A stretch of DNA of 24,574 nt, taken from a virus. Positions within the stretch are counted from its first letter, which is position 1; each line of letters opens with the position of its first letter. The stretch is from positions 1 to 24,574 of IMG/VR virus record IMGVR_UViG_3300009008_000237; one strand, 5' to 3'. The notes below the pieces were generated by a model. That model ran no database searches, was not told where the DNA came from, and worked only from the letters and a program-made list of their open reading frames with translations. Shown one piece after another: positions 1,937 through 16,207 of the stretch. The position numbers and the translations under genes are program-made.

Positions 1937-1975
1937 ATGTACAACAACGGAAACTCAAGTAAGAACGTAACAGGC
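1937..1975 (+). repeat. 39-base direct repeat, copy 1
   Basis: This matches 3400-3438 at 38 of 39 positions. Both copies begin exactly at an ATG and end after the GGC codon of the peptide MYNNGNSSKNVTG. The pair flanks the second spike gene. Confidence 0.9.
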
Positions 1976-1987
1976 TCTGGAGAATAA
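1937..1987 (+). pseudogene. 16-codon remnant copying the start of the downstream tail-fibre gene
   Basis: An ATG preceded by AAAAGGAG opens a tiny frame, MYNNGNSSKNVTGSGE then TAA. Its first 39 bases (1937-1975) match the first 39 bases of the fibre gene at 3400 with one difference (AAG against AAA at the ninth codon). After the GGC codon the two sequences diverge. The frame ends two bases before the second spike's ATG at 1989, and its final TCTGGAGAA supplies that gene's GGAG ribosome-binding site. It looks like the stump of a fibre gene left when a spike gene recombined into this place. It could instead be retained as a translated leader. The repeat is seen directly; the history is inferred. 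Confidence 0.6.
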
Positions 1988-1988
1988 T

Positions 1989-3377
1989 ATGGCACTAACT
2001 AAAGCAGCAAACAGAATGACCGAGGGGGCAGCGATCAATGTACTTGACTATGGCGCAGATCCAACTGGTGTAAATGACTCATTGGCTGCATTTGATTTAG
2101 CGGTTGCTGCTGGAGATCAAGTTGTAATTCCTGTAGGCACTTATAAATTAACAGGAACTTGGTCAATACCACGCAACAAGCAAGTAAGAGGTATAGGTTA
2201 TGCCGACAGCGGTAATAAAGGTCGTCCAAAACTTGTTCCAACTGCCGCTGTAACTGGTACTGTTATTGAATTAGAAGGCTCATCCAACTGGTTGGAAAAC
2301 ATTTATGTTGATGGTTCAGCAACAACGGGTGTTATTGGGCTTCGCATTGGTAATGTACCTTTAGCAAATTTGTGTTTTGTAAATAATGTAGACTGTGATG
2401 AATTTACAGGAAGTGGGGCTAAAGGGTTGCAGCTTATCAATACGGTTGGATCTTACTTTACCCATTGCCGATTTATTAAAAATCAGGAAAACGTAGGTAT
2501 TGGTAGTTTATCAACTGGCGGCACTCCAACTACGACTGTATTTAATCAATGTTGGTTTAGAGAGGCTGTTGGCACAGGAGTGACAGTTCGTTCAAACCAT
2601 CAACTTACATTTAATGATTGTCTTTGGGAGGCTAACGGACAAGCTGGCATGTCTATTGGCGATGCTGGCTTCGTTTGTGTTGGAGTTCATATTAACGGAG
2701 GTTGGTGCGAAGGAAATTGGTCTACTTCTGGCACACCAGCGAATGAGGCTCATTTCAACTTTAATGGTGTTGGTGGTGATTTTGAAAATCTCTATATATA
2801 CGGAACGCTTTTTAGTGGTGGCCCTTCTAGCGTAAGAGCAATTAAAGCTAATACAATTTACGACTTGTTAATCAGTGCGCCTATAACATCCACAACTGGT
2901 GGTGCAGGTATGATTTCAACCACTAATTGTACTGGATGGCTTGAAAACTGGCGACAGCAATCTGGAACTGGATGGGCTGATAGTGGTGGCAGCATGTTTT
3001 GTAGTAAAAATGAATTAACAGAAGAATGGATAGATTGGACTCCAGTATATACACCAAATGGCTCTATGTCATTTACCAGCATTACAACCACAACGGCTCG
3101 CTATAAACAAACAGGGAAAACATTTGTATTTGAGTTAAATGTCTCAGGTACTACAGGTGGTTCTGCATCAACAAACATTTCAATGACTTTGCCATCTGGT
3201 ATTACCACAAAAAATCAAAGTATTTTGATTTGTTATATGAACAATAACGGTACTAACACAACTGGTAGAGCTGTGTTTGATGGTACAAACAACGTAGCTC
3301 TTGCCAAAATAGATGGTGGTAATTTTGCTTTAGGAACAACAGGATTTTCTGGTTCGTTCACAATTGAAATTGATTAG
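1989..3377 (+). CDS. Second tailspike or fibre, pectate-lyase superfamily fold
   Basis: This 462-residue protein begins almost directly with the pectate-lyase-like spike motif (NVLDYGADPTGVNDSLAAFD at about residues 17-36), then VVIPVGTYKLTGTWSIPRN, the first turn of a right-handed beta-helix. There is no long particle-binding N-terminus, so it may attach through another spike or through the first 15-20 residues. Residues from about 335 onward (EEWIDWTPVYTPNGSMSFTS and following) form a separate C-terminal beta domain of a type common at the ends of marine phage fibres. The similar WTP block in the fibre at 3400 suggests shared modules. The start is supported by GGAG at 1979-1982. Its composition is more AT-rich than the first spike, consistent with an independent origin. 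Enzyme activity is possible but no catalytic residues are identified. Confidence 0.8.
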   Translation: MALTKAANRMTEGAAINVLDYGADPTGVNDSLAAFDLAVAAGDQVVIPVGTYKLTGTWSIPRNKQVRGIGYADSGNKGRPKLVPTAAVTGTVIELEGSSNWLENIYVDGSATTGVIGLRIGNVPLANLCFVNNVDCDEFTGSGAKGLQLINTVGSYFTHCRFIKNQENVGIGSLSTGGTPTTTVFNQCWFREAVGTGVTVRSNHQLTFNDCLWEANGQAGMSIGDAGFVCVGVHINGGWCEGNWSTSGTPANEAHFNFNGVGGDFENLYIYGTLFSGGPSSVRAIKANTIYDLLISAPITSTTGGAGMISTTNCTGWLENWRQQSGTGWADSGGSMFCSKNELTEEWIDWTPVYTPNGSMSFTSITTTTARYKQTGKTFVFELNVSGTTGGSASTNISMTLPSGITTKNQSILICYMNNNGTNTTGRAVFDGTNNVALAKIDGGNFALGTTGFSGSFTIEID

Positions 3378-3399
3378 CCATTAACAACAGGAAAATAGA

Positions 3400-3438
3400 A
3401 TGTACAACAACGGAAACTCAAGTAAAAACGTAACAGGC
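3400..3438 (+). repeat. 39-base direct repeat, copy 2
   Basis: This is the intact copy, at the 5' end of the fibre gene. It differs from 1937-1975 at one base and encodes the same 13 residues. Confidence 0.9.
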
Positions 3439-4596
3439 GCATCTGTAGTGGACGGTACGATTGCCAATGCAGATATAGATTCTTCTGCTGCAATCGCTAC
3501 AAGCAAACTCTCAGGCGCAGTCACAAGTATTGCTTCTCATGGATTGGCCTCATCAGCTACAACGGACACCACGAACGCAAGCAATATCGGTTCTGGAACA
3601 TTATCTAATGACAGATTAAGTTTAGATATTAGCAACTCAGATATAAACGCTTCTGCTGAAATAGCTCAATCGAAACTGGCAACACTGGTAATCACTGATT
3701 CAGAAGTAGCGGACAATGCTTTATCAGGGAACAAGATTGATGGAGGCACTATCAGTAACTTCGCCTCTACAGGTATTGATGATAATGCTACGAGTACAGC
3801 AGTAACATTAGACTCCTCTGGCGATGTTATGATAGGTTCAACTGTTGCCCCTATTGGTACTGGTTTAACAGTAAACTCAGGCATTAGCTCTTCAAGCATC
3901 ACTGCTATAGAAATTCAACAAAATACTACCGGAGCAGTAAAAGCCGCAGCAGCGTTTGGTGTTGGTATAGCTAATGGCGGTGAATCCACTAATGCTGCTT
4001 CTTTAAAGATGCTTACAGCAACAGGGGGTTCTCTAGTAGAACGCATGCGTATCACCTCCTCTGGAGACGTACAAGTCAAAACAGGCAACCTAGTAATAGG
4101 CACAGCAGGCAAGGGTATTGATTTCTCTGCTACTGCTAATACAACTGCTTCTGGTGCTTCTATGACATCAGAGTTATTAGATGACTATGAGGAAGGTACT
4201 TGGACTCCAGCCTTTACGACTACCGGAACAGCCCTCGACAGCGTGACACACTCTCACCAGTCTGGTTCTTATACAAAGATCGGCAGAAAGGTGACTGTAA
4301 CCTTTATGCTACGCACCAGCGCGGTTACAGTGGGATCGGCTTCTGGCTATTTGATTATCGAAGGGTTGCCATTCACCCCTAGTCATAGTGGATCGGATCG
4401 AGGGGGAGGTTCAGCGCACAGCACTTTTGGTTGGGGTGGGGAGGCCCCTCGTAGCCTTTCAATCTCTGGTTCAACAAACAACATATACCCCACCTATCAC
4501 ACCACAAACAACAGGACTTACAACAGCGACCCAACAGATTTAAGTGCATCAGGTAACAATGATGTTTATGGGGCAGCCACATACTTTACAGCATAG
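3400..4596 (+). CDS. Tail fibre, low-complexity modular protein
   Basis: This 398-residue protein is rich in Ser, Thr, Ala and Gly. The N-terminal third contains an internal repeat: DIDSSAAIATSKL near residue 24 and DINASAEIAQSKL near residue 80, with GSGTLSNDRL between them. The middle (GDVMIGSTVAPIGTG, then ERMRITSSGDVQVKTGNLVI) resembles the beta-rich shaft found in many aquatic phage structural proteins. LLDDYEEGTWTP near residue 260 opens a C-terminal beta domain. These features fit a trimeric fibre or receptor-binding protein, not an enzyme. The start is preceded by CAGGAAA and its first 13 codons are duplicated at 1937. The stop overlaps the AGGAG ribosome-binding site of the next gene. 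Confidence 0.7.
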   Translation: MYNNGNSSKNVTGASVVDGTIANADIDSSAAIATSKLSGAVTSIASHGLASSATTDTTNASNIGSGTLSNDRLSLDISNSDINASAEIAQSKLATLVITDSEVADNALSGNKIDGGTISNFASTGIDDNATSTAVTLDSSGDVMIGSTVAPIGTGLTVNSGISSSSITAIEIQQNTTGAVKAAAAFGVGIANGGESTNAASLKMLTATGGSLVERMRITSSGDVQVKTGNLVIGTAGKGIDFSATANTTASGASMTSELLDDYEEGTWTPAFTTTGTALDSVTHSHQSGSYTKIGRKVTVTFMLRTSAVTVGSASGYLIIEGLPFTPSHSGSDRGGGSAHSTFGWGGEAPRSLSISGSTNNIYPTYHTTNNRTYNSDPTDLSASGNNDVYGAATYFTA

Positions 4597-4605
4597 GAGC
4601 ATAGC

Positions 4606-4860
4606 ATGGCTTTAGAAAAGAAAACAATTGAAGATAAAATCGAGATCATAGGTGATTTCAAATCAGTACAGGTACGCACTGCAACAGTGATTGAAGAGGA
4701 CGGAGTAGAAATCTCTCGTTCATTCCATAGGCACACAATCTCAGCAGGTGACGACTACTCTAATGAGTCACCAGAAGTACAGGGGATTTGTCAGACCGTT
4801 CATACACCAGAAGTAGTTGCTGCATTTGAAGCACACAAGGCAGAGCAGGAGAATAACTAA
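4606..4860 (+). CDS. Conserved-looking small phage protein, unknown function
   Basis: This 84-residue, acidic and charged protein begins MALEKKTIEDKIEIIGDFKS. AGGAG at 4595-4599 lies seven bases before the ATG and overlaps the fibre gene's stop codon, so the two are translationally linked. Small proteins of this kind are often found after fibre genes in aquatic phages, but no enzymatic or binding motif is visible. A part in fibre assembly is possible only from position. Confidence 0.6.
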   Translation: MALEKKTIEDKIEIIGDFKSVQVRTATVIEEDGVEISRSFHRHTISAGDDYSNESPEVQGICQTVHTPEVVAAFEAHKAEQENN

Positions 4861-4920: not shown

Positions 4921-5229
4921 ATGAAAACACTAGATGTAATTGAAGATACGTTGGCAATTGTACCATCAGATACTTTCTACGAGATATCTATTGCAGCAAC
5001 AACCAATCAGCAATTGACAGCACCATCAAACGCAGAGTTTGTAGTGTTCTCTGCTAATGGTGACTTCTATGTTTGCTATGATGGCACTGCTGCAACTGTT
5101 CCATCTTCTGCAACCTGGACAACCGGAGATCAGGAATTGAATCCTAGTATCCGTAAGTGTGAAGCAGGAGATACATTCGATGTGATTGCTCCAGCAGCAA
5201 CTAAGATTACTGCGGCATTCTACGCATAG
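4921..5229 (+). CDS. Small beta-rich structural protein, unknown function
   Basis: This 102-residue protein begins MKTLDVIEDTLAIVPSDTFY and is rich in alternating hydrophobic, Thr and Ala residues. The block FVVFSANGDFYVCYDGTAATVP followed by NPSIRKCEAGDTFDVIAPAATKITAAFYA looks like a compact beta-sandwich. Proteins of this size and pattern occur as accessory virion proteins in tailed phages. A decoration or fibre-associated role is inferred, not shown. AAGGAG at 4906-4911 supports ATG 4921. An out-of-frame ATG at 4914 gives only a nine-codon frame and is ignored. Confidence 0.55.
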   Translation: MKTLDVIEDTLAIVPSDTFYEISIAATTNQQLTAPSNAEFVVFSANGDFYVCYDGTAATVPSSATWTTGDQELNPSIRKCEAGDTFDVIAPAATKITAAFYA

Positions 5230-7347: not shown

Positions 7348-9144
7348 ATGAACAATACTTTTGATGTAGAACAATTCTTGGACAGAGATAGATTAGCAGT
7401 TACTATTGCTAATAACTGGACTGAATGGCAAGGTCTACGCAAGGAATGGGAATCAGAGAAGAGAGAGCTACGTAATTATATCTTTGCTACTGATACTACT
7501 AAGACTACTAATGCCTCTTTGCCTTGGAAGAATAAAACTACTCTTCCTAAATTAACCCAGATCAGAGATAACCTACATGCTAACTATATGGCAGCCCTCT
7601 TCCCTAATGATGAGTGGTTATCATGGAGTGGTGATGATGAGGACTCAGTAGCTATGGATAAACGTAAAGCCATTGAGTTCTATATGAAGAATAAACTCAA
7701 TAACTCTGGCTTTAGGAATACCATATCTAAACTAATTCTGGATTATATTGATTATGGTAATTCTTATTCAGGTATTACGTACGTTAATGAATCTAAATCA
7801 GATCCTATTACGGGTGAAGTAATACAGGGATATGTGGGTCCTAGACTTTATCGTATCTCACCTTTCGATATTGTATTTAATCCTACCACTGCATCCTTTG
7901 AAGAATCACCAAAGATCATTAGATCAATTAAATCACTAGGTGAATTAAAGAAGAATGTACTAAACAATCCTGAGCTTGGTTATAGTCAAGAAGTTATTGA
8001 TCGTATACTTAATAATCGTAAGGCATATACACAGCTTGATCCTTCTGATCGTGCTAAGTCAGAGGGTTTCTCAGTAGATGGTTTTGGTTCTATTGAACAG
8101 TATTATAACTCTGGATATGTAGAGCTTCTTGAGTTCCAAGGAGATATCTATGATCAGGATACAGATACTCTTTATGAAGATCATATCATCACTGTTATTG
8201 ATCGTAGTTATATAGTACGCCTAGAACCTAATAAATCGTGGTTAGGGGAGGGTTATATCAGACATGTGGGTTGGCGTACCAGACCTGATAATCTCCTCGC
8301 TATGGGGCCACTAGACAATCTGGTGGGTATGCAGTATCGTATTGACCACCTTGAGAATCTAAAGGCTGACGTATTTGATCTTATAGCACATCCAGTTATG
8401 AAGATTAGAGGATACGTAGAAGACTTTGAGTATGGTCCAGGTGAACGTATTTATGCTGGTGATGATGGTGACGTAGATTTCATGCGACCAGATACTACTG
8501 CTCTTTCTGCTGATATGCAGATTAGAGAGCTAGAGAATAAAATGGAAGAGTTTGCTGGTGCTCCTAAACAAGCTATGGGTATTCGTACTCCAGGTGAGAA
8601 GACAGCATATGAAGTACAAGCACTTGAGAATGCTGCTGGTCGTACATTCCAAAATAAGATCACACACTTCGAGGAACTATTTATAGAGCCACAGATAAAT
8701 GCAATGTTTGAAATGTCAAGGAGACATTTAGATGGTGCTGATATTATTCGTGTAATGGATGATGACTTTGGTGTGGCTTCTTTCCTTACTGTAACCAAAG
8801 AAGACATTACAGCCAGAGGTAAGTTATATCCAAGAGGTGCTCGTCATTTCGCTAAACAAGCACAGCTTATACAAAATCTAACTCAGTTCGCTAACAGTTC
8901 TATAGGACAAGATCCTGCTGTTAATGTACATATCTCAGGTAAACGTATGGCACAACTAGCTGAGGAATTACTGGGTGTAGATAAGTTTGGATTAGTACAA
9001 GAGAACGTGCGTATCATGGAACAGCAAGAGACTCAACGTATTATGCAGAGTGCTCAACAGCAACTACAACAAGAGCAGATGATGGATGTAGATCAGTCTG
9101 AGGAAGAAGAACAGATAATATTACAACAACAAGGAGCAATATAA
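7348..9144 (+). CDS. Portal (head-to-tail connector) protein
   Basis: This 598-residue protein forms the dodecameric ring through which DNA enters and leaves the head, and which docks the terminase and tail. The N-terminal third has typical portal features (SLPWKNKTTLPKLTQIRDN, then a stem-like region). The middle PLDNLVGMQYRIDHLENLKADVFDLI and the following APKQAMGIRTPGEKTAYEVQALENAAGR correspond to the conserved portal core of podovirus connectors. The C-terminus is Gln- and Glu-rich (QQQLQQEQMMDVDQSEEEEQ), as in barrel or crown ends. It follows the large terminase directly, with AAGGA before ATG 7348, and its stop overlaps the next start as TAATG. Confidence 0.88.
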   Translation: MNNTFDVEQFLDRDRLAVTIANNWTEWQGLRKEWESEKRELRNYIFATDTTKTTNASLPWKNKTTLPKLTQIRDNLHANYMAALFPNDEWLSWSGDDEDSVAMDKRKAIEFYMKNKLNNSGFRNTISKLILDYIDYGNSYSGITYVNESKSDPITGEVIQGYVGPRLYRISPFDIVFNPTTASFEESPKIIRSIKSLGELKKNVLNNPELGYSQEVIDRILNNRKAYTQLDPSDRAKSEGFSVDGFGSIEQYYNSGYVELLEFQGDIYDQDTDTLYEDHIITVIDRSYIVRLEPNKSWLGEGYIRHVGWRTRPDNLLAMGPLDNLVGMQYRIDHLENLKADVFDLIAHPVMKIRGYVEDFEYGPGERIYAGDDGDVDFMRPDTTALSADMQIRELENKMEEFAGAPKQAMGIRTPGEKTAYEVQALENAAGRTFQNKITHFEELFIEPQINAMFEMSRRHLDGADIIRVMDDDFGVASFLTVTKEDITARGKLYPRGARHFAKQAQLIQNLTQFANSSIGQDPAVNVHISGKRMAQLAEELLGVDKFGLVQENVRIMEQQETQRIMQSAQQQLQQEQMMDVDQSEEEEQIILQQQGAI

Positions 9145-10037
9145 TGGCAAGAACAACTCCAGGTGGAGGCTTTCAACCTAAGTTTGGTATGGGTAGAGGC
9201 GGTGGTACAGGTGGTGGTCGGATGGGTAAGGCTGCCGTAATCAAGGGTGGCACACCTACAGGACGTAAAGTAAAACGTCAAGGCAAGAAAGCACAGTCAA
9301 CAGCAGTACCTAAGTCAGGACCTACTCGTCAGAGTGTAAAGGAAGGTATTAAGAGCAGAGCTAAGAAGCGTGAAGCTGAGAAGGCTAGAGTATCAGCACT
9401 AGCTAAGAAACGTAGAGAGGAAGCTAAGAAACGTTCTGAGGCTCGCAAGAAGAAAGCCGCTGATAGAGAAGGTACCAAGAAACAAGCTAAGAAGAAAACT
9501 GTTAAAAAGAAAACTGTTAAAAAGAAAACACCAAAAGCAAATATTAATAAGATTGGTGGTGGTAAACCTGCATCACCTTCAAGAGCTAAGAAGGCTGGTA
9601 TACTAACAGGTTCTGTTGTAGGGGGTACTATATTAGGTATAGGCCTTAGTAATCTTTCACAAGATAAGGCGGCTCCCAAGAAGAAGGTATGGGAAACAGA
9701 CGCTTACAAGAAGAAGATTAGAGAACGTGATGCTAAGGTAGAGGCTATTAGAAAACGTAAACAACAGAACAAAAAGAAAGCTTTTGATGTTTCAGCTTTG
9801 ATTGGTAAGTCTACCGATAAACTAAAGAAGCAACGTAAAAGCGATCTAGCTAAACGTTATGCTAAGAAAGCTAGTAAGTCAGGTTTTACTGTTTCTAATC
9901 TTATTGCTAAAGCAGTTGGTAATATGAAGAAGAAACGTAAACAGGAAGAACTTAGTAAAAAGAAAGGTTATCTTAGAGATAGCTCAGGTAAAAGAGTGAG
10001 AACAGGCTATGGCGGTTATGTCAGAACAAGGAAATAA
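9144..10037 (+). CDS. Lysine-rich histone-like protein, unknown function
   Basis: This 297-residue protein is extremely rich in Lys, Arg and Ala. The N-terminus is glycine-rich (GFQPKFGMGRGGGTGGGRMG). Residues about 60-135 form a long charged helix or coil, ending in tandem KKTVK KKTVK KKTPK. Residues about 152-172 (GILTGSVVGGTILGIGLSNL) are hydrophobic and could insert in a membrane. The C-terminal third repeats a 34-residue unit: FDVSALIGK at 214 and FTVSNLIAK at 248, each followed by a lysine cluster. The composition recalls histone H1-like bacterial proteins and suggests DNA or nucleic-acid binding. Lying between portal and scaffold, it could be a minor head protein packed with or ejected with DNA. 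That is inference, and the family is not recognised. Confidence 0.65.
   Translation: MARTTPGGGFQPKFGMGRGGGTGGGRMGKAAVIKGGTPTGRKVKRQGKKAQSTAVPKSGPTRQSVKEGIKSRAKKREAEKARVSALAKKRREEAKKRSEARKKKAADREGTKKQAKKKTVKKKTVKKKTPKANINKIGGGKPASPSRAKKAGILTGSVVGGTILGIGLSNLSQDKAAPKKKVWETDAYKKKIRERDAKVEAIRKRKQQNKKKAFDVSALIGKSTDKLKKQRKSDLAKRYAKKASKSGFTVSNLIAKAVGNMKKKRKQEELSKKKGYLRDSSGKRVRTGYGGYVRTRK
9492..9529 (+). repeat. 15-base tandem repeat, 2.5 copies
   Basis: AAGAAAACTGTTAAA is repeated exactly at 9492-9506 and 9507-9521, then partially at 9522-9529. It encodes KKTVK units inside the lysine-rich protein. Such repeats change length easily by slippage in multiples of five codons. Confidence 0.85.
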
Positions 10038-12632: not shown

Positions 12633-12649
12633 TATTAATAGGATAAATT

Positions 12650-13402
12650 ATGGCACAGATGACTCTTCTTGACATGACCCAGAATATCCTGTCAGCTATG
12701 GATAGTGATAATGTCAACGATATAGATGCCACACCTGAGTCACAGCAAGTAGCTACCGTAATCAAAGAAACATACTTTGAGATTATTAATCGTAGAGATT
12801 GGCCATTCCTTATGGGGGCTGATCAACTAACAGCACTGGGTGATTCTTCTAATCCAACACGTATGCAAATCCCTAGTGGGGTTAGTAAAATATATTGGAT
12901 TAAATATGACCGTAAGGAAGCAACTGCTGATCCTGAATTAAGTACAGCTATTACTTATAAAGAACCTATTGACTTTATAGAATTATGTGATAATAGAGAT
13001 AGTACAAGTTCAGATGTATTAGTAGTCACAGACTCCAGCGGTATCAAACTAAATATTCGTAAAGATGATGGTCCTCAATACTGGACATCTTTTGATGACG
13101 AATATATCTATTTCGATTCTTATGCTTCTTCATTAGAATCAACACTACAAGAAAATAAAACCAAGATACATGTTCTTAAAGAACCATCTTGGTCACACAC
13201 AAATACAACAATACCTGATCTACCTGCTCACATGTTCTCTATGTTTTTAGCTGAGGCTAAGTCAGTATGTATGCTCAACATTAAACAAATGGAATCAGTT
13301 AAGGAAGAGCAGAGAAGTAGAAGAGGTTTAACTAGAATGCAACATGCATCATGGAGAGAGAATGGAAAACCAAGAACCCCTAACTACGGTAGAAACAGAT
13401 AA
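12650..13402 (+). CDS. Tail tubular protein A / adaptor (T7 gp11-like)
   Basis: This 250-residue protein lies in the gene-11 position after the capsid genes. It would form the ring joining the portal to the nozzle. The N-terminus (MTLLDMTQNILSAMDSDNVNDIDATPESQQVATVIKETYFEIINRRDWPF) is the typical podovirus adaptor start, in which a helical segment leads into the aromatic RDWPF. A conserved-looking middle follows (RMQIPSGVSKIYWIKYDRKE), and a C-terminal helix (LPAHMFSMFLAEAKSVCMLN) with a basic tail. AGGATAA precedes ATG 12650. Its 3' end overlaps the next small gene by about 41 bases. The assignment rests on pattern and synteny. Confidence 0.75.
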   Translation: MAQMTLLDMTQNILSAMDSDNVNDIDATPESQQVATVIKETYFEIINRRDWPFLMGADQLTALGDSSNPTRMQIPSGVSKIYWIKYDRKEATADPELSTAITYKEPIDFIELCDNRDSTSSDVLVVTDSSGIKLNIRKDDGPQYWTSFDDEYIYFDSYASSLESTLQENKTKIHVLKEPSWSHTNTTIPDLPAHMFSMFLAEAKSVCMLNIKQMESVKEEQRSRRGLTRMQHASWRENGKPRTPNYGRNR

Positions 13403-13679
13403 ACAAAAAAAGAAACCTAGAAAGAAATATGTTAGATCTAGGGAAAATAATAGTAAGCCTCTACAGAATACAAAAGCCAAACGACTAGAACAACAGAAGT
13501 TATGGCAAGAAGGTATGCGTACCAAGTTTGAAATCAAACGTCTACCTCAGCTCACTTCCGTTGAGATCGTAACCAAAGGTAATACTAAACTACCTAATAG
13601 TTTACAGGGTATGTGGACCGATCATAAAATAGCTCAACGAGCAATTAATGTTTATATAGAAACTGGATTCAAGGTTTAA
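13362..13679 (+). CDS. Small basic protein between adaptor and nozzle genes
   Basis: This protein has 105 residues from ATG 13362 (MENQEPLTT). ATG 13344 would extend it by six residues, but GGAGAG at 13353-13358 favours 13362. The first half is very basic (KQKKKPRKKYVRSRENNSK). The second half is a mixed domain (FEIKRLPQLTSVEIVTKGNTKLP). It overlaps the adaptor gene in another frame and ends in a TAATG junction with the nozzle gene. It could be a minor tail or internal protein, or a chaperone for tail assembly. No known family is recognised. Confidence 0.55.
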   Translation: MENQEPLTTVETDKQKKKPRKKYVRSRENNSKPLQNTKAKRLEQQKLWQEGMRTKFEIKRLPQLTSVEIVTKGNTKLPNSLQGMWTDHKIAQRAINVYIETGFKV

Positions 13680-16207
13680 TGCCACAAGCACAACAAAATA
13701 AAAATTATTTCACATTCGTTAAGGGGCTTATTACTGAAGCAAACCCATTAACATATCCAGAGGATACTTCTTTTGATGAAGATAATTTTATACTAAAACG
13801 TAACGGTAGCCGTGAACGTAGATTAGGTATAGATTGGGAAACTAATAATAAAACAGCCAATACTGTTGATGTTGTTACTACAATAGGTGGTTCTTCTTTT
13901 GATGATTCCGAAATAGAAAGTTATGCTTTTACTACTCATGAATGGAGGGGTGTAGCTGGTGATGGGAATAAGAATTATACTATTATTCAGATAGGGCCAT
14001 ATCTTTATGTACACGATATGGAAAGATATCCATCTGATAGTACGGATAATCATATTATATCTGAAAACAGAATAGATCTAAATATAAGCGGTAACGAATA
14101 CATAGATCTAACAAACTATGCGGCTCCTGGATTAGCTAGTTCAGTAGGCACAAATCCTGTTGATATTGCTTTTGGTAGGGGACGTGCATTTATTACCTGT
14201 GCTTGTGTAGAGCCTATTTATCTTGAATATACTACAGCCACAGATACGTGGTCTGTTGTTCAGTTTGAGTTACAGGTTAGAGATTTTGAGGGGGTAACAG
14301 ATAACCTAGATTTAGGTGAGCGTCCATCATACCTCTCAAAAGAACACCAATATAATCTACTTAATCAAGGCTGGAAAAACGAGGGTGAGGGTGGTATAGA
14401 TACACGTAAGATGTCACCACTAGAAGATATTGGAGCGGTTAGTGAAGTAACAGTAACCAACGGTGGTTCTGGTTATACCACTGAACCAACCATTGCTTTT
14501 ACTGGTGGTGCGGGTGCAGATGCAGCAGCTACAGCCACTATACTTAATGGAGAAGTTATCTCTATTACTGTAACAGAAGGTGGTACTGGTTATACTTCCG
14601 CACCTACCATGAGTTTTTCAGGGGGTGGTGGATCCGGTGCAACAGCGACTTGTGATTATGCTACTGCTGATGACACTCCATCTAAATATCCATCTAACTC
14701 TGACTTATGGCAATTAGGTAAATATACAGATCTTGATACAGCATCTAGCACCAACGGCCAAGATATCTGGAATACTACACAACTAGATAAATTCAATATA
14801 GGTAATGCAACTGCGGCTAAAGGTAGTTTTACTTATGATTTATTTAATATAAATAGATCTTCTAACGTAGCTGGACTTTCTGATATAACTGAAACATATA
14901 GAGCAAGCACAGTAGCTTTCTTTGCTGGACGTGTTTGGTATAGTGGTTTTAATTCTGAACGCATTGGTGGTAATGTAGTATTCTCTCAAATTATTCAAAA
15001 CATAGATCAGCAAGTTGGTTATTGTTTTCAAGCTAACGACCCTACTGCTGAAGACCTAAACGAAGTACTACCTTCTGATGGTGGTGTTATTGATATTCCA
15101 GAAGTAGGACATGTCAATAAGATTATTACTGCAGGTAACTCATTAATTATTTTAGCTAATAATGGTGTATGGCAAATATCTGGTGGTGATTCAGGCTTTA
15201 CTGCTGATACTTATGTAGTAAAGAAGGTAACTAATGTTGGTTGCGATTCACCAAATAGTGTTATCTTTGCTGAAGGGCTTGTTTTTTATTGGGCTGGTGG
15301 TGGTATTTATGTGCTGGAAGCAGATCAAATATCATTAAATCTGAAAGCTACAAACATAACACAGAATACTATTCAAACTAAATATAATAATATACCTAGA
15401 AATAAAAAGAATAAAGTCTTTAGTATTTATGATGAGAACGAAAAAGTACTTATTTGGGGATATAATGATGATGCTGGTGAGGATATAGATTATAAATATA
15501 CTAAATCAATTATGTATGATTTAAATCTAAAAGCTTTTCATTTACATTCACTAGGAACCCTAAACGGAGATAAACCTTTTATTGCTACGGGTCTTTTCTA
15601 TCATGATCTAACGGTTGGGGGGGTACAACAGAAAAGCACACCTAAGTTCTTATCTATAGTGCCTACAGTACCTACTCATGCAACGGATAAACAGTGGAAA
15701 TATTGTTTTAGTTATATGAAGGATGGAGATTATTTTACAGATTGGAGACAGTTTGAGATAGATATAAATAGTGCCACTGACGATGCTGTTGCTGGTCATA
15801 GTTATACCTCATATTTAGAAACCGCTTATGAGTTAGGCGGTGATGCTATGAGAAATAAACAAGTTAATTATTTATATATTTATATGACACGTACTGAATT
15901 AACAGCTACGGATGGCGTTCTTGATAATCAAAGTGCTGTAGATGTACAAGCTCGTTGGGAATGGGCTGATGATTCTATAAGTGGTAAATTTACAGATACA
16001 TTTGACGGTTATAAATATGTACGTCCTTATGTATTATCTTCCACAACAGGAACAGTAAACGTGGATTATGGTTATAAGGTTATGGTAACAAAAAATAAAA
16101 TACGTGGTCAAGGTAAAGCAGTACAATTTAGATTCGCTTCACAAGATAATAAAGACTGTAAGCTTTTAGGTTGGGCGATACACGCAACAGGAGTAACTAT
16201 AGTGTAA
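13679..16207 (+). CDS. Tail nozzle / tail tubular protein B (T7 gp12-like)
   Basis: This 842-residue protein is the expected nozzle of the short tail. The start (FTFVKGLITEANPLTYPEDTSFDEDNFILKRNGSRERRLGIDWE) has the family pattern of a short strand, a proline segment, then an Asn- and Arg-rich turn. The middle is a large beta-rich body (about residues 400-600, with KIITAGNSLIILANNGVWQI). The C-terminus has KNKIRGQGKAVQFRFASQDNKDCKLLGWAIHATG, a motif common at the end of podovirus nozzle-like proteins. Residues 253-328 carry a glycine-rich two-repeat insertion. The start is coupled to the previous stop, and the stop overlaps the next ATG. T7 gp12 is about 794 residues, so the length fits. Confidence 0.72.
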   Translation: MPQAQQNKNYFTFVKGLITEANPLTYPEDTSFDEDNFILKRNGSRERRLGIDWETNNKTANTVDVVTTIGGSSFDDSEIESYAFTTHEWRGVAGDGNKNYTIIQIGPYLYVHDMERYPSDSTDNHIISENRIDLNISGNEYIDLTNYAAPGLASSVGTNPVDIAFGRGRAFITCACVEPIYLEYTTATDTWSVVQFELQVRDFEGVTDNLDLGERPSYLSKEHQYNLLNQGWKNEGEGGIDTRKMSPLEDIGAVSEVTVTNGGSGYTTEPTIAFTGGAGADAAATATILNGEVISITVTEGGTGYTSAPTMSFSGGGGSGATATCDYATADDTPSKYPSNSDLWQLGKYTDLDTASSTNGQDIWNTTQLDKFNIGNATAAKGSFTYDLFNINRSSNVAGLSDITETYRASTVAFFAGRVWYSGFNSERIGGNVVFSQIIQNIDQQVGYCFQANDPTAEDLNEVLPSDGGVIDIPEVGHVNKIITAGNSLIILANNGVWQISGGDSGFTADTYVVKKVTNVGCDSPNSVIFAEGLVFYWAGGGIYVLEADQISLNLKATNITQNTIQTKYNNIPRNKKNKVFSIYDENEKVLIWGYNDDAGEDIDYKYTKSIMYDLNLKAFHLHSLGTLNGDKPFIATGLFYHDLTVGGVQQKSTPKFLSIVPTVPTHATDKQWKYCFSYMKDGDYFTDWRQFEIDINSATDDAVAGHSYTSYLETAYELGGDAMRNKQVNYLYIYMTRTELTATDGVLDNQSAVDVQARWEWADDSISGKFTDTFDGYKYVRPYVLSSTTGTVNVDYGYKVMVTKNKIRGQGKAVQFRFASQDNKDCKLLGWAIHATGVTIV
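14435..14662 (+). repeat. Glycine-rich two-repeat insertion in the nozzle protein
   Basis: Residues 253-328 hold two repeats of about 38 residues: VSEVTVTNGGSGYTTEPTIA followed by a glycine-rich loop, then VISITVTEGGTGYTSAPTMS followed by a glycine-rich loop. Such GGSGYT-P repeats occur in many phage surface and tail proteins and form small beta modules. The repeat is at the protein level only; the DNA copies differ. Confidence 0.75.

Follow-up and report, generated by a model that had tools for sequence, protein, structure and literature searches.

In phages Mu and P1, a tail-fibre segment is invertible. Among marine phages, metaviromic islands have been described in which near-identical phages differ in their tail-fibre genes, whose N-terminus is conserved and whose C-terminus varies (PMC3909814). 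Modular tailspikes, as outlined in PMC10408124, combine conserved N-terminal anchors with swapped bodies, and the distant Alteromonas phages A5 and V22 have host-recognition modules in common (PMC10579305). The locus analyzed here lies in a linear 24.6-kb virus record, the whole of which is termed the window. Like the metaviromic islands, it combines a near-identical core with divergent receptor-binding genes within one species: identity is very high outside the cassette, and gene bodies inside it are unrelated. The cassette genes belong to tail fibre and spike families by virtue of PF12708 spikes and S74 chaperone ends, with phrog_17970 as the only assignment of the fibre-like gene in the window itself. 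Whereas metaviromic islands were defined by read recruitment, the variability here is known from contigs alone, and it extends to whole-gene layouts (A-C, A-B-C and A-stump-B-C) and to a leftover gene start. The locus also resembles the modular tailspikes and phages A5 and V22 in its conserved starts, its exchanged bodies and a cassette common to distant phages. It differs from those accounts in that three adjacent genes each have their own conserved start, with one reduced to a 16-codon stump.

All features of the locus are encoded on the plus strand. Gene A (positions 3 to 1925), an open reading frame matching Pfam PF12708, is a pectate-lyase-like tail spike whose 5′ end is cut by the window edge. 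Its bases 1 to 189 are 92–93% shared with two contigs of the same species (L004 and L092), and its body is different; a search for the donor of this body revealed relatives that are only ∼40% identical. Gene B (1989 to 3377) encodes a second pectate-lyase-like spike of 462 amino acids that begins with MALTKAANRM and matches PF12708 with an E value of 9e-9. A homologue that is 62% identical is present in contigs L175/L176. Gene C (3400 to 4596) encodes a 398-amino-acid fibre-like protein. Its sole profile match is to phrog_17970, which PHROGs labels as ‘unknown function’, and its designation as a probable fibre draws on its position, its repeats and its relatives, which end in an S74 chaperone. 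An 84-amino-acid tail-locus protein (4606 to 4860, phrog_6228) follows, and its 3′ end, GGAGAATAACTAATG, is where the cassette that L004 has replaced reaches its right edge. Among isolates and named records, the nearest terminases (57–59% identical) are those of an uncultured Manatee Spring phage and of Methylophilales phages MEP401 and MEP402, with 57% identity to that of MEP401, which has been placed in Zobellviridae.

A repeat search of the window confirms the first-pass annotation in its observation that the start of the fibre gene recurs, with one mismatch, in a 16-codon mini-ORF just before the second spike. The two 39-nucleotide copies (1937 to 1975 and 3400 to 3438, the latter being the start of intact gene C) form a direct repeat with 38 of 39 bases identical and a spacing of 1463 bp. 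Their sole difference is an AAG versus an AAA codon, and zero matches of this kind are expected by chance as judged from 100 dinucleotide-preserving shuffles. The sequences 5′ of the two ATG codons do not match each other. The ORF list and a comparison of gene starts identify the upstream copy as part of a fibre stump, MYNNGNSSKNVTGSGE (1937 to 1987), which is preceded by a strong Shine-Dalgarno-like AAGGAG (1926 to 1931) read from the sequence. The TAA stop codon of the stump (1985 to 1987) lies one base 5′ of the spike B ATG at 1989, and a leader comparison delimits GGAGAATAAT (1979 to 1988) as the stump end plus the leader of spike B. Because the stump is known from the contig of a single genome, an assembly error at its junction with gene B is a formal possibility.

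Four IMG/VR contigs (L004, L005, L006 and L092) match the window at 99% identity or more across their core, and in three of the four a different receptor-binding locus is clear. The terminases of L004, L005 and L006 are 100% identical to that of the window, and L092, also of the same species, has matching protein ends. Outside the cassette, the window differs from L004 by four mismatches in 12.4 kb, from L005 by 29 mismatches in 12.4 kb (mostly at the cassette edge) and from L006 by five mismatches in 8.65 kb. L092 differs from the window 3′ of fibre C by few mismatches, plus length changes in one repeat-rich gene. A lysine-rich gene of 297 amino acids with KKKTV-type repeats (9144 to 10037 in the window) varies in length among the same-species contigs, being longer than in the window by 30 and 21 nucleotides in L004, 15 and 21 in L005, 15 in L006 and about 30 and 21 in L092.

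Against this nearly invariant background, the layouts of the locus are polymorphic. In L092, spike A runs straight into fibre C, with neither gene B nor a stump, and C is nearly the same 398-amino-acid fibre as that of the window, with the same terminal residues. L004 carries A, B and C without a stump; its B protein (621 amino acids) and its C protein (252 amino acids, with an S74 chaperone end) have bodies unrelated to their counterparts in the window. The window alone has the order A-stump-B-C. Given these three arrangements, spike B is optional in the species, which does not have an old, fixed layout. The proposal that spike B is a gene gained and lost therefore holds, since a relative lacking it between A and C exists, and relatives do not uniformly keep the two-copy layout that would mark an old and fixed arrangement. 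Gene C itself bears signs of ongoing exchange. When the window C is compared with that of L092, there are 37 mismatches in nucleotides 1 to 244 and none in the remainder of the gene, and L006, a contig that starts exactly at nucleotide 245, matches the window C from that point on. The window, L004 and L092 contigs likewise start within 42 nucleotides of one another, shortly before the first differences in gene A. Contig starts at these points would be consistent with an assembly that branches where coexisting variants diverge. A third C cassette is present in L005 and is 94% identical over 1.31 kb to L086/L090, which otherwise match L005 nowhere in the sequence compared. For L086, the coordinates of this fibre cassette are 12644 to 13957, corresponding to 1 to 1311 of L005, in two phages otherwise unmatched in the compared sequence.

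The origin of the stump can be considered in light of the distribution of the fibre start among other phages. Fibre-like genes in at least eight contigs outside the species of the window begin with MYNNGNSSKNVTG. Across 11 fibre starts, the 39 nucleotides average 95% identity to the modal base, compared with 82% for the next 39 nucleotides and 49% for the 40 nucleotides upstream. Thus, the conserved unit begins sharply at the ATG family-wide, which by itself accounts for where the repeat in the window begins. The stump has one mismatch to its own gene C, one to the fibre start of L091 and two to five other starts, with the AAA codon of the window C being the odd one out among fibre starts. Most other MYNNGN phages (L084, L088, L091, L093 and L144) have C directly after A and spikes after C, such that the stump occupies the usual place of C. 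A degenerate fibre-start pattern found no match in genome contigs, and a tblastn search with the fibre start found none among isolated phages.

These data bear on the earlier suggestion that spike B was inserted into the start of its own fibre gene C, with a duplication leaving a stump and regenerating an intact copy. In favor of this suggestion, L092, of the same species, has the A-C layout that lacks B, and the two copies differ at just one of 39 bases. However, L004 has B before C and no stump, and the stump is equally near a foreign fibre start, that of L091. Because the start is common to many phages, the neighboring fibre need not be the source of the stump, as had been assumed, and similarity that begins exactly at the ATG, as it does family-wide, makes a local duplication unnecessary. 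Spike B also has its own leader. We therefore consider insertion with regeneration unlikely. Repeated gene starts within one tail locus are in any case not unique to the window, since two tail-like genes 5.7 kb apart in another contig (L195:5931 and L195:11619) have the same first dozen or so codons (MSNFxDxIGG). This pair also has ∼40 nucleotides of leader in common, and the gene bodies are unrelated. A further contig carries adjacent paralogues (L033:7286 and L033:8141) that begin with MSNMDEA, are 276 and 266 amino acids long and 38% identical overall, and have a near-identical DNA start.

The 3′ end of the stump bears on how it arose. Its terminal sequence, GGA GAA TAA t ATGGC, is a leader common before MALTK genes in other phage contigs. 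We found 57 distinct matches to GGAGAATAA followed by ATGGC, 24 of them with one-base spacing (the window and 23 others), and 16 of these one-base-spaced leaders follow a gene that terminates, in the same register, in -GE-stop. The stump is thus a fibre start joined in frame to a spike leader. A search for other stump-spike junctions (GTAACAGG followed by ATGGC) returned one unrelated contig only, L174. At the junction, GGCTC is a better fit to an S-type fibre start than to the window C, but the difference is two bases only, too few to assign an exact junction. Read as the 3′ terminus of an S74 fibre, like those of L004 and L088, the stump end CTGGAGAATAA would have demonstrated an internal deletion. 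Because GGAGAATAA plus one nucleotide plus ATGGC is a general MALTK leader, in frame and gapless, this reading stands only as one of the two equivalent routes set out below.

The same junction could be taken to suggest a functional role for the mini-ORF as an upstream ORF, with translation of spike B coupled to the mini-ORF stop codon. The sequence has features that such coupling might use: a strong AAGGAG lies ahead of the mini-ORF, the stop is one base before the B ATG (TAA t ATG) and the GGAG of B is inside the mini-ORF. Moreover, -GE-stop junctions are common before MALTK genes. Yet the fibre-start sequence would not be required for this arrangement, and comparison of the same-species contigs, L004 and L092 among them, and of every other MYNNGN locus compared places the mini-ORF in one genome only, that of the window. 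A dedicated regulatory role is accordingly highly improbable.

We favor the interpretation that the stump is not a working gene and is instead a recombination scar, left by an off-register crossover or by loss of a fibre body, and we assign this reading a probability of roughly 0.7. The region from gene A to a 102-amino-acid gene (4921 to 5229) constitutes a hypervariable receptor-binding cassette whose genes keep their starts (∼190 nucleotides for A, ∼70 for B and 39 to 220 for C) and exchange bodies and order. In the most likely account, a genome with the A-C layout would have undergone an off-register crossover with a genome carrying B before C, yielding a product in which fibre codon 13–14 is joined to the own leader of B (-GE-stop-t-ATG). 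In an equivalent route, the body of the first fibre would have been lost from an A-C′-B-C locus. The two cannot be distinguished from the present contigs, and the presumed parent, whether with an intact fibre directly after the window’s gene A or with the A-C′-B-C order, was not found among them. Spike B and the intact C would thereafter presumably serve as ordinary extra host-binding proteins.

Two more dynamic possibilities follow from the repeat itself. The first-pass annotation had proposed a switchable cassette, in which the 39-bp copies would recombine and repeatedly delete B, with exchange restoring it and shifting host range in the population. In principle, a direct repeat of 39 bp suffices for recombination in phages. 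After deletion, gene A would be followed by an intact C with a strong Shine-Dalgarno sequence ahead of it, and both presence and absence of B occur in the species. Nonetheless, the predicted junction, joining 1975 directly to 3439, was not found among IMG/VR contigs when these were searched for an exact match to the initial 26 bases of the start, which recovered one other contig only (L001/L004), with a different layout. Nor does L092 represent the window after such a deletion, as its A body and C start differ, and restoring B would need a second, B-carrying genome. Such a switch is therefore very unlikely. Mu and P1 likewise have two fibre-segment copies per locus, with inverted repeats on either side of the segment and an invertase gene; in the window, however, the repeats are direct, one of the copies is reduced to a stump, and the ORFs examined in this incomplete genome include no recognized invertase. 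Diversity-generating retroelements combine a reverse transcriptase with a template repeat that shows adenine-directed changes. Within that same incomplete sequence, the 39-mer, with its one A/G difference, is the only strong direct repeat. It also seems quite unlikely that the 39-base fibre start acts as a recombination handle across genera, with its two direct copies making B a repeatedly lost and regained host-range cassette.

The locus is a clear example of known phage variability, and not a proven genetic switch. Hypervariable receptor-binding loci of this kind have already been described in marine phages (PMC3909814, PMC10579305, PMC10408124). What is new is that several layouts are documented for a single phage species, together with a stump that marks a junction; we found no direct precedent in the literature on fibre-gene remnants. 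Tail-gene shuffling appears here to be caught in the act, with an almost unchanged core accompanied by at least three arrangements of host-binding genes in one population. Further signs of exchange are the fibre cassette that recurs at 94% identity in another phage and the leftover start at the junction. A repeated fibre start, it should be cautioned, need not imply local duplication or a switch. The locus illustrates how host-recognition modules that can be exchanged are delimited by short conserved gene starts.
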